The notes under the pieces: model-generated
Database searches by the model: none
The model's input: the letters and a program-made list of their open reading frames with translations, nothing else
Told to the model about the DNA's origin: nothing
In this document: piece by piece, positions 23,980-57,985 of the stretch
How the letters are laid out: every line of letters begins with the position of its first letter
Numbering within the stretch: position 1 is the stretch's first letter
Position numbers and translations under genes: made by a program
Source of the DNA: Gallionellales bacterium GWA2_60_142
GTDB lineage: Bacteria; Pseudomonadota; Gammaproteobacteria; Burkholderiales; Gallionellaceae
Direction of reading: 5' to 3'
NCBI GenBank assembly: GCA_001801085.1
Contig: MGWR01000029.1
Span: 1-60,202 of the forward strand
Length of the DNA stretch: 60,202 bases

Positions 23980-24180
23980 GGAGCCTCGTAAACCGTAGCG
24001 AGCGGCTTGAGTGCAAGGCGCACGGAACGCAGAAACCGGAATGTACTTAATGTTTGCCGCTACGCGGCAACGGATTTCGACAACGAAGTTGCGGTGAAGG
24101 CTAATGCGCGAAGCGCGTTATGCCGTAGCCAAGACCGCGCAACGCAGCAATCGAGTCGCGCAGTAGGTTTTCGAGGCTCC
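23980..24180. repeat. Palindromic repeat family, copy A
   Basis: Terminal inverted repeats GGAGCCTCGTAAACC (23980-23994) and GGTTTTCGAGGCTCC (24166-24180) match at 14 of 15 positions when inverted. The interior shares long blocks with copy B (57671-57985), among them GTGCGCCTTGCACTCAAGCC, CATTCCGGTTTCTGCG and AACTTCGTTGTCGAAATC (in B orientation). It fills the whole gap between the convergent phosphatase and msrA genes: 16 bases after one stop, 3 after the other. Internal hairpins include TTGCCGC-tac-GCGGCAA. I cannot name the family. Confidence 0.75.
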
Positions 24181-26650: not shown

Positions 26651-26955
26651 ACGAGACCATCAGCATCGAAGTGGTGTACGGATTGCCGTATGAGCAGACC
26701 CTGCTTAAGAAGGCTGTCCCCGTCGGCACGACCGTGGCCGAAGCGATACAGGCGAGCGGCATCCTGCAGAAACATCCCGATATCGATCCGGCGGCCAAGC
26801 TGGGCATCTTCGGCAAGCTGACCAAGGGCGATGCGGTGCTGCGCGACAAGGATCGGATCGAGATCTATCGCCCGCTGATCGCCGACCCGAAGGAGGTGCG
26901 CCGCAAGCGCGCCGAAGAGGGAAAGGTCATGAAAAAGGGCGGCGGCGAAGCGTGA
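26647..26955 (+). CDS. RnfH family ubiquitin-like protein (RatB)
   Basis: 102 residues, beta-grasp fold of the RnfH family: ISIEVVYGLPYEQTLL, VPVGTTVAEAIQASG, LGIFGKLTKGDAVLRDKDRIEIYRPL and DPKEVRRKRAEE (segments in order). Such genes follow ratA, often overlapping by ATGA as here. Function is not well defined. Its stop codon lies at the edge of the repeat copy C. Confidence 0.9.
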   Translation: MNETISIEVVYGLPYEQTLLKKAVPVGTTVAEAIQASGILQKHPDIDPAAKLGIFGKLTKGDAVLRDKDRIEIYRPLIADPKEVRRKRAEEGKVMKKGGGEA

Positions 26956-27097
26956 ACACCCCCGTCAATCTACTGCGCAGGCGGATTGCGGCGTTGCGCG
27001 GTGCTCACTCTCTCGCCTACCTGTTTGGTATGTCTCGGTCGTTGCGCTCCGTGCGCCTTGCACTCCGCCTTGCTCGCAACGATTGCCGGGGGTGTTC
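26954..27097. repeat. Palindromic repeat family, copy C
   Basis: Arms GAACACCCCCGTCAATC (26954-26970) and GATTGCCGGGGGTGTTC (27081-27097) pair at 16 of 17 positions. The core begins TACTGCGCAGGCGGATTGCG and ends TGCGCCTTGCACTC...GCTCGCAAC, as in copies A and B, but lacks their middle blocks (144 bases here). The outer arms share no sequence with those of A or B. It overlaps the ratB stop codon and its right arm supplies the GGGGGTG upstream of the next gene. Confidence 0.75.
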
Positions 27098-56416: not shown

Positions 56417-57675
56417 CTTTATTCTGGATAGTCTGCGCAGTGCTGCTGGTGATCGCACTGCTGTTCCTCGTGCTGCCGCTGTGGCGCGCGACCGCCAACA
56501 ACAACGACGTGCTGCGCGATGCCGCCAACCTCGAAATCCTGCGCGACCAAGCCGCCGAAATGGAGAAGGACCTGCATAACGGTCTGCTGACTCAGGAGGC
56601 CTACGAGCAGGGCAAACTCGAATTGCAGGCGCGCCTGCTGGACGAGGTCAAGACTACCGGCCAGGGCGAGAAGCTCGCACACAATCCCGCGCGCAAGCTG
56701 GCGGTGATTTTGGCTGTGCTGCTGCCGCTGTTCGTCGTACCGTTCTACTTCGTCGTCGGTAACAGCAAGGCTCTGCTGCCGCAGGACGAACTGGCGGTTG
56801 CCGACGGCTTCGGCGTGATCCGTTCCGAGGCCGCGCTACAGGAACTCGAAAAGAAGATGGAGCGCCTGCCGGAGAATCCGGACGGCTGGGTGGTGCTGGC
56901 GCGTTCCTATAGCGCAATGCAGCGTTACCCCGATGCGGTGCGCGCCTACGGCAACCTGGTCAAACTGGTGCCGAACGAGGCGCAGTTGTGGACCGACTAC
57001 GCCGATGCGGCCGCGATGAACAACAACCAGTCGCTGCTAGGCGAACCAACCAAGTTCCTTAACAAGGCGCTGGAACTCGATCCAGACAACACTTCTGCGC
57101 TGGCATTGTCCGGCTCGGCGGGGATGGAGCGCGGCGACTACTATGCAGCGGCCCTCCACTGGCAAAAGCTGGTCGACCTGCTGCCGCCGGACTACCCGGA
57201 CATCCAGATGATTCACGAGGGCATCAAACAGGCCAAGGAGTTCCTGGCTATGCAGAAGGGCGGCAAACAGAAGCTGGCGCAACTCGAAAAGATGAAGGGC
57301 GCAGCCCCTGTCCAGCCGGCGACCGATCCCGCGCAGGCGATCACTGGCCGCGCATCGTTCGCAGCGGGCATGGCCGGCATGGCCGCCCTGACCGACACCG
57401 TGTTCATCCTCGCGCGCGCCGCGAACGGCCCGAAGATGCCGCTCGCCGTGTTGCGCAAACAGGTAAAGGACTTGCCGCTGGAATTCACGCTGGACGACAG
57501 CCTGGCGATGCAGCCCGAACTGAAACTGTCCGGCTTCGACGAAGTGGTCGTCATCGCCCGCGTGTCCAAGTCCGGTAGCCCGATGGCCCAGCCCGGCGAC
57601 CTGGAAGGCAGTGTGCAGGCGGTCAAGCCGGGAAGCAAGAACCTGAGTCTGGTGATCGACCGGGTCGTAAAGTAA
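56413..57675 (+). CDS. ccmI: Cytochrome c maturation protein CcmI
   Basis: 420 residues. Two N-terminal transmembrane helices (about 3-25 and 98-115) around a helical loop, followed by TPR-like repeats (NPDGWVVLARSYSAMQRYPDAVRAY) and a C-terminal beta part (VFILARAANGPKMPLAVLRKQ). Binds apocytochrome c and presents it to CcmH/F. The stop lies at the edge of repeat copy B. Confidence 0.93.
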   Translation: MTLFWIVCAVLLVIALLFLVLPLWRATANNNDVLRDAANLEILRDQAAEMEKDLHNGLLTQEAYEQGKLELQARLLDEVKTTGQGEKLAHNPARKLAVILAVLLPLFVVPFYFVVGNSKALLPQDELAVADGFGVIRSEAALQELEKKMERLPENPDGWVVLARSYSAMQRYPDAVRAYGNLVKLVPNEAQLWTDYADAAAMNNNQSLLGEPTKFLNKALELDPDNTSALALSGSAGMERGDYYAAALHWQKLVDLLPPDYPDIQMIHEGIKQAKEFLAMQKGGKQKLAQLEKMKGAAPVQPATDPAQAITGRASFAAGMAGMAALTDTVFILARAANGPKMPLAVLRKQVKDLPLEFTLDDSLAMQPELKLSGFDEVVVIARVSKSGSPMAQPGDLEGSVQAVKPGSKNLSLVIDRVVK

Positions 57676-57985
57676 CTCGCAAACCTACTGCGCGGCTCGA
57701 TTTACCCGCAAGGGGCAGGCCGGTGGGTGCCCCGGCGGCTTCGCCGCCACCCATCCGCTCGCGGCGTTGCGCGGTGTCGGTTTCGGCATAACGCGCTTTG
57801 CGCATTAGCCTACACCGCAACTTCGTTGTCGAAATCCGGGGCCGCGTAGCGGCAGACTGTAAGTACATTCCGGTTTCTGCGCTGACCAGCGACTTGGCTG
57901 GCGTTCTTTGCCAGCTTAGTCGATTGGCCATGCAAAGCTCCGTGCGCCTTGCACTCAAGCCGCTCGCTACGGTTTGTGAGCTACT
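57671..57985. repeat. Palindromic repeat family, copy B
   Basis: Arms AGTAACTCGCAAACC (57671-57685) and GGTTTGTGAGCTACT (57971-57985) pair at 13 of 15 positions. Core TACTGCGCGGCTCGA... to ...AGCCGCTCGCTAC as in copies A and C. It carries two extra modules absent from A: a hairpin with GGCGGC-ttc-GCCGCC (57734-57748) in a 57700-57758 insert and a GACCAGCGACTTGGCTGG block near 57880-57940. The left arm contains the ccmI stop codon. Confidence 0.75.

Follow-up and report, generated by a model that had tools for sequence, protein, structure and literature searches.

A MITE-type hairpin repeat with IS5-family ends, paired outer arms and a bias toward stop codons in Gallionellaceae

Three copies in the window and the spread of the core

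The window, the whole 60,202-nucleotide stretch of the Gallionellales bacterium GWA2_60_142 contig that was analysed, contains three copies of a hairpin element, named A, B, and C (Table 1). According to Pfam, copy A is flanked by a low-molecular-weight phosphatase gene and a PMSR (msrA-type) gene, both of which face it with their 3' ends, and copy B starts at TAA (57673-57675), which is the stop codon of a CcmH/CycH-like gene. Copy C separates an RnfH-family gene (stop TGA, 26953-26955) from a PHP-domain gene, the start of which is read here as ATG 27100, whereas the listed open reading frame begins further upstream. In all three copies, the core is bounded by CTACTGCGC on the left and GCTCGC(T/A)ACG on the right. 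Inserts inside the core lengthen A and B, while C has none and leaves approximately 110 nt between its arms.

The original prediction described three copies with a common core and differing, self-complementary outer arms. The coordinates and strands of A, B, and C agreed with this description, and the counts of paired arm positions (14/15 in A, 13/15 in B, and 16/17 in C) were reproduced. With a fixed register and equal bases, such pairing is expected with probabilities of 4e-8, 9e-7, and 3e-9 for A, B, and C, respectively. On these odds and on a swapped-arm control in 109 copies, described below, chance was ruled out as the source of the arm pairing. The description of the inner stem was slightly inaccurate, as this stem is imperfect in copy A, with GACTCGA on one side and GGCTTGA (complement) on the other. 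No clear target duplication was seen in the window flanks of A, B, or C. The second hairpin nested in the core of B (ACCAGCGACTTGG..AGTCGATTGGCC) has a variable inner stem of its own, and a hairpin similar to it by eye stands alone at the site of copy A in the nearest relative, G009.

Table 1. Positions and strands of copies A, B, and C and of their parts within the window.
Feature	Position	Strand	Basis or remark
Copy A, whole element, 201 bp	23980..24180	minus	neighbors from Pfam
A, left outer arm (terminal inverted repeat)	24166..24180	minus	14/15 complementary to 23980-23994
A, right outer arm	23980..23994	minus	pairs with 24166-24180
A, insert module 1 in core	24078..24133	minus	counterpart in B, 57777-57831
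A, apical GC-rich module 2	24052..24071	minus	counterpart in B, 57838-57857
Copy B, whole element with several inserts	57671..57985	plus	weak match to R1, 18.5 bits
B, left arm	57671..57685	plus	outer bases overlap native stop codon
B, right arm	57971..57985	plus	pairs with B left arm
B, GC-rich insert, left inner stem	57701..57761	plus	
B, second hairpin element nested in core	57882..57933	plus	
Copy C, whole element, short form	26954..27097	plus	
C, left arm	26954..26970	plus	
C, right arm	27081..27097	plus	contains GGGGGTG, Shine-Dalgarno-like, few bases before ATG 27100 (read from sequence)

When copy A was compared with its own assembly (G000) by blastn, 30 matches were obtained, which were grouped into 19 copies. 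A covariance model of the core only, R1, was built from nine copies aligned without arms. It gave 24 matches in G000 among the matches listed and 23 under stricter filters, with copy B being a weak match of 18.5 bits. Among the matches listed, 28 of the 41 genomes in the relatives set, including the own genome, were positive for R1, and 3 of 24 same-genus genomes were without a match. Order-wide, 42 of 120 genomes and 33 of 78 genera were positive, the own genome included. A contig scan, of which the best 80 of 100 stretches were considered, placed the core in at least three phyla (Nitrospirota, Geobacteraceae, Lysobacterales, Burkholderiaceae, and others, together with further Gallionellaceae); the cross-phylum genomes are mostly MAGs, and binning errors are therefore possible. 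The distant set used below comprised 66 of 84 matches and still includes other Gallionella and Sideroxydans genomes; ten matches taken as duplicates, two truncated at the edge of a contig, three with lower scores, and three echoes on the opposite strand were left out. The plasmid search returned no match to a Gallionella copy. One contig (G110:C5; L442, L443) carries head-to-tail arrays of the element with periods of approximately 142 and 122 bp.

The covariation of the core stems was 0.482, compared with 0.167 after shuffling and at most 0.102 after sliding. G-T cells outnumbered A-C cells in the core by 415 to 81, mainly in a few fixed columns, although this count leans on a structure predicted for that same strand. 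Moreover, the non-complementary internal loops CTACTGCG and CTCGCTACG, which face each other, were conserved across phyla. The apical modules differed at one locus between copies of G005 and G011 that were otherwise alike, and at an orthologous locus G000 differed from G012, G007, and G006. Whole modules also differed between orthologous copies of G000 and G009. Such module swaps at orthologous loci fit conversion between copies, which would in turn yield a common core with locus-specific arms.

Transposon ends and insertion sites

In the genomes G075 and G052, near-identical copies lie between exact 4-bp direct repeats in 10 of the 11 cases of this arm type. Nearly all of these repeats read YTAR (e.g., TTAG/TTAG and CTAA/CTAA), and CAGGCCGTTGAAAAA is an end type among the fresh short copies. 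Of 39 CAGGCTG-type copies, 20 had an exact target duplication and 9 had one with a single mismatch, whereas shuffling gave a mean of 5.1 and a maximum of 14 exact cases; for the GGGCACC type, 8 of 24 were exact (shuffled mean 0.46, maximum 4). In one subfamily the target was TNA, as read from few copies.

The same ends, CAGGCCGTTGAAAAAC..GTTTTTCAGCGGCCTG, bound a 1.3-kb insertion sequence in G052, which encodes a 360-aa IS5-family transposase (NF033581, 305 bits against a cut-off of 140; DDE_Tnp_1). That genome also holds 24 matches to the element. Its two copies of the insertion sequence have unequal flanks, TTAA/CTAA and CGAT/TTAA, and one of them is interrupted. A search of 16 genomes for the IS5 protein gave matches in 2, strongly in G052 only, and G075, which is rich in fresh copies, is without it. 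In the case of G000, no insertion sequence with these ends was detected by end patterns, PF01609, or the IS5 protein, and the PF01609 transposase was likewise absent from G000, G009, and G016. No insertion sequence with GAAGCTG ends was found in 11 genomes, as all 15 pattern matches adjoin copies of the element; among the CAGGCTG pattern matches, some were checked for an adjoining copy. The shared ends were seen in G052; no insertion sequence matched A, B, or C at their exact ends.

Further evidence came from a Troglogloeales genome (G045), in which GGGCACCTCTAAAAAC arms also enclose a different repeat, the CCCCTAAATCC core of which is unrelated (L389, 1560-1690; L399, 1395-1515). On one side the arm is perfect, on the other it carries two or three changes, and the core shares no 9-mer with the family core. 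As the same arm surrounds an unrelated core, the arm is best read as a transposon end and the core as its passenger.

Accordingly, the identification of the element as a mobile, non-autonomous MITE with the ends of an IS5-family insertion sequence is well supported. Judging from these sequences, IS5-like transposases would move it in trans. The original prediction knew of no named family of this kind; this view needs amending, since the 3' half of the element appears to be related to Rfam sX9, and the complete element is a MITE, its kind of arm being the end of an IS5-family insertion sequence. Bacterial MITEs moved by IS5 are similar in being short, in lacking a transposase gene, in having terminal inverted repeats and a 4-bp target duplication, and in ends that match an IS5-family element in a genome also holding copies. 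The present family differs from them in that old copies keep their arms paired while the arm sequence turns over, and in a core with conserved internal loops and covarying stems that occurs in several phyla with several kinds of ends.

Insertion sites were compared between G000 and its relatives, the matched flanks of G000 and G009 being mostly 80-96% identical. At the position of copy C, G009 and G007 have an empty site in which the stop and start codons overlap as TGATG without any arm-like sequence; G017, G001, and G004 have other spacers there. In G009, the site of copy B is likewise empty, and that of copy A is occupied by another repeat. A copy at lysS (G000:C40:1513), for which the gene assignment was confirmed, was different: its left arm starts with the native gene end GAGTGATC, common to G009, and its right arm is an inverted copy of the left arm. 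Copy B shows an arm overlapping the native end in a similar manner over six bases. The comparison with relatives covered nine G000 copies, of which these are two. Both would fit a left arm that was overwritten and then paired anew through template switching, although two cases are too few to settle the matter.

The original prediction had raised the possibility that arms are copied from the insertion site. Matches between arms and native sequence at the site were found for the lysS copy and, over a shorter stretch, for B, but not at the site of C. As a rule, an origin of the arms at the insertion site was discarded, considering that the empty sites of C lack arm-like sequence and that fresh copies have near-identical arms at many sites. 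At one site (L206, G009:C1), corresponding to the copy G000:C48, the apparently empty relative retains CAGCCTG, as if the element had been deleted between two CAG arm triplets. Other repeats occupy the same gene junctions in relatives (L240, L244, L248), and such junctions seem to turn over quickly.

In-step change of the outer arms

The arms lie outside R1, and their pairing was therefore an independent test. Among the matches listed, 109 of 120 copies were usable, 11 having been dropped for an odd core start or a short flank. At least 8 of 11 outer arm bases were complementary in 79 of the 109 copies (72%), compared with 4.9% when arms were swapped between copies. The distribution was two-humped, with at most 5 of 11 bases paired in 24 copies. 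The outer 10-mers comprised 93 distinct sequences in the 109 copies, although subfamilies with a consensus exist. Two outcomes had been named that would speak against the original prediction, namely arms without self-complementarity in further copies and a single arm sequence everywhere. Neither describes the family, the 24 poorly paired copies and the subfamilies notwithstanding.

In the distant set, 65% of the 65 copies with both flanks reached at least 8 of 11, compared with 19% after swapping. Two arm types, GGGCACCTCTAAAAAC and CAGGCTGTTGAAAAA, recur across phyla; arm types in the family as a whole include CAGGCTG, GGGCACC, GAAGCTG, and TACATAGCG. The arm end was profiled in 122 of 181 distinct copies, those with at least 12 of 16 positions paired. 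The paired fraction was 0.93 at position 15 and had dropped to 0.25 by position 20, with a sharp stop at 16-18, and from position 20 the pairing of the flanks was not above the null. This sharp fall indicates a defined arm end, that is, terminal inverted repeats of fixed length.

Changes were then counted against the consensus arms of the subfamilies, with each copy placed under one subfamily and arms too far from any consensus left out. In 68 distinct arm pairs, 121 paired positions had changed in step, whereas 65 changes were left-only, 73 were right-only, and 45 affected both sides without pairing. Independence would give 18 in-step changes, and re-dealing the right arms within subfamilies gave a mean of 43 and a maximum of 68. 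Covariation of the arms, as collected with a core-based profile, was thus confirmed both by pairing and by in-step change.

Orthologous copies showed the same behavior. At one locus, the arms were GACACCTCG/CGAGGTGTC in G007 and GATACCTCC/GGAGGTATC in G012, and at another, ACACC/GGTGT in G022 and ATATC/GATAT in G010. Unpaired changes also occurred among orthologous sets, so that pairing was kept imperfectly. The predicted in-step change of the arms therefore held well beyond chance, including at orthologous loci, and it was the insertion site as the general source of the arms that did not hold.

Stop codons, selection, and a possible role in cis

Copies of the element mostly abut stop codons in the sense direction. 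With genes called by a codon-usage script rather than taken from annotation, which applies to all stop and start analyses here, the stop codon of the facing gene lay within 25 nt of the core at the left end in 61 of 71 cases in the near set, and at the right end in 19 of 50. In the far set, the corresponding numbers were 27 on the left and 11 on the right. One peak in the distance to the stop, at 14-17 nt, corresponds to stops that directly adjoin the arm; a second peak, at 1-7 nt, consisted mostly of copies with a coding, unpaired left arm. Among 38 copies whose arms pair poorly, 20 had a stop no more than 12 nt away on the left and 1 had such a stop on the right. Moreover, a Shine-Dalgarno-like motif was present in 19 of 28 start-adjacent arms and in 41 of 210 other arms. 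Stop/start overlaps were probably the landing sites of copy C and, as read from the flanks, of a copy at a locus shared by G018, G010, and G022.

Some copies were also conserved. In 10 of the 12 ortholog pairs, similarity was higher in the core than in either 300-bp flank; these pairs come from fewer loci (one trio counts as three and one set as two), the flanks of one pair barely align, and the conservation partly reflects ascertainment, as a pair could enter the comparison only when R1 detected both of its members. In four aligned genomes (L331, L261, L259, and L100; L461 is the same record as L331 and is not counted), a copy with differing apical modules lies directly behind a stop codon that follows GGMGGMM. 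The upstream gene was groEL in both of the genomes tested. This copy lacks the left arm, and a terminator-like hairpin then follows. Among three other orthologous copies, two were near-identical throughout, and the third had diverged DNA downstream; the core differences were 2 of 110. Most simply, these observations would mean that an action in cis preserves some copies. The sense orientation at stop codons, the Shine-Dalgarno-like arms on the start side, and the left-armless copy kept behind groEL are new observations.

The manner in which the arms stay paired was evaluated from mismatches. Selection on RNA is expected to leave G-U more often than A-C on the transcribed strand, and we know of no reason for template switching to favor G-U in the arms. 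No preference for G-U was found in the arms: 16 G-U stood against 43 A-C in one count, and the consensus-based count gave 33 against 49 cells (25 against 35 distinct). A-C exceeded G-T for either direction of neighbor transcription. The sense strand also had no folding advantage, as it gave the better fold in just 42 of 119 copies. Template switching can create and repair stems in RNA genes through reverse-complement copying (PMC8794818). The conserved unpaired loops of the core persist, though template switching would tend to remove them. The arms may thus stay paired through template switching, selection, or both, and both together are favored.

Taking these results jointly, we consider it probable that A, B, and C are old MITE-type hairpins at stop codons, with drifting paired arms and, preferably, a function in cis. 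In this explanation, a covarying core of roughly 110 nt between terminal inverted repeats of 15-17 bp would be mobilized in trans by IS5-like transposases and would land at or next to stop codons, occasionally where a stop and a start codon overlap. Such positions may tolerate an insertion, as a YTAR target can regenerate a stop codon and an arm can act as the ribosome-binding site of the next gene. Some copies would then remain in place through species divergence. The core would be kept uniform by purifying selection and conversion between copies, while the arms, lying outside most exchange, would drift and retain complementarity through template-switch repair, selection for a paired stem, or both. 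As a cis-acting hairpin in the gap between stop and start or at an mRNA 3' end, the element may tune mRNA end formation, decay, or the translation of the next gene. This cis-acting function is the preferred one, and we infer it only.

A neutral MITE, with arms paired only by template-switch (quasipalindrome) correction and a closeness to stop codons that reflects tolerance of insertion, is a serious but rather unlikely alternative. The indifference of the arms to G-U and the lack of a better-folding strand are consistent with it, as are the frequency of in-step changes, for which a mechanism is known in RNA genes (PMC8794818), and the right arm of the lysS copy, which matches the native gene end. 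However, such correction has not erased the internal loops CTACTGCG/CTCGCTACG across phyla, and the greater conservation of the core than of coding flanks, the sense bias at stops among poorly paired copies, and the groEL copy kept across genomes all argue against a neutral repeat.

The element could also be a self-spreading translational-coupling cassette that lands in stop/start overlaps, with the Shine-Dalgarno sequence in one arm and its mask in the other, which we regard as improbable. The ribosome ending the upstream gene would open the outer stem and free the next start, and the arms would change together under selection, each locus tuning its own strength, with some copies (groEL and others) becoming fixed host regulators. 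It is more doubtful still that the element is purely a selected RNA structure, in which the stem is needed and every arm change is compensated by a second point mutation. Covariation and fixed G-U columns in the core, the sense bias at stops, and Shine-Dalgarno-like arms beside start codons would fit such selection, but the expected excess of G-U over A-C on the transcribed strand is missing from the arms and the sense strand has no better fold energy.

The resemblance to sX9 (RF02228) raises the reading that the copies are a family of trans-acting small RNA genes, multicopy by happenstance, and this was judged very unlikely. The 3' half of three copies (L019, L014, and L020) among the seven searched aligns over all 76 positions of the model at 31.7-37.6 bits, with an E value of 0.0011 in 21 kb, and sX9 transcripts have been reported in Xanthomonas (PMC10924375). 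These scores, however, are below the gathering score of 44, no Rfam family reached the gathering level in the window, and Rfam models as a small RNA what is half of the hairpin. The placement of copies is, moreover, tied to stop codons and neighboring starts, with target duplications and insertion-sequence ends. In two Xanthomonas stretches, sX9 is intergenic and follows the end of a gene by 42 and 45 nt, in the same direction; the match in Xanthomonas sacchari is between proC and the next gene. With R1, the X. sacchari stretch reached no more than 12.9 bits, and the X. citri stretch gave no match. A phage collection searched with the sX9 consensus gave one partial match each in two records of one Yersinia phage, which were taken as chance. 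Least probable of all is that arms are made at insertion through inverted copying of the target site: the lysS copy, with its native left arm and inverted right arm, and the overlap of copy B with a native stop would agree with it in single copies, but as a general rule it is refuted by fresh copies that have nearly one arm at many sites and direct rather than inverted duplications, and by the two empty sites without the arms of C.

With regard to known systems, the ERIC (RU-1) repeats of enterobacteria are intergenic, 127 bp long, MITE-like, and co-transcribed, and their orientation is described as mattering for the stability of the upstream mRNA (PMC2229807). Compared by description, they appear to be the best functional likeness. 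To our knowledge, in-step change has not been described for ERIC arms. Hairpins arising by template switching (quasipalindromes) are similar in that reverse-complement copying makes and repairs stems (PMC8794818), but they concern RNA genes, whereas the present element is dispersed and mobile with locus-specific arms. As judged by titles and abstract openings, nothing on the full element beyond sX9 was found in the open-licence literature.

These findings have several implications. As sX9 stands in top lists of small RNA annotations (PMC9029176), an abundant Rfam family may be part of a mobile repeat, and some sX9 annotations may represent repeat copies rather than small RNA genes. The repeat settles between stop and start codons and possibly supplies a ribosome-binding site there. 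Finally, once inserted, each copy goes on to evolve its two ends in step with one another, which provides many natural replicates; these offer a direct means of asking if template switching or selection produces the paired changes seen in hairpins, a question still open for RNA genes.
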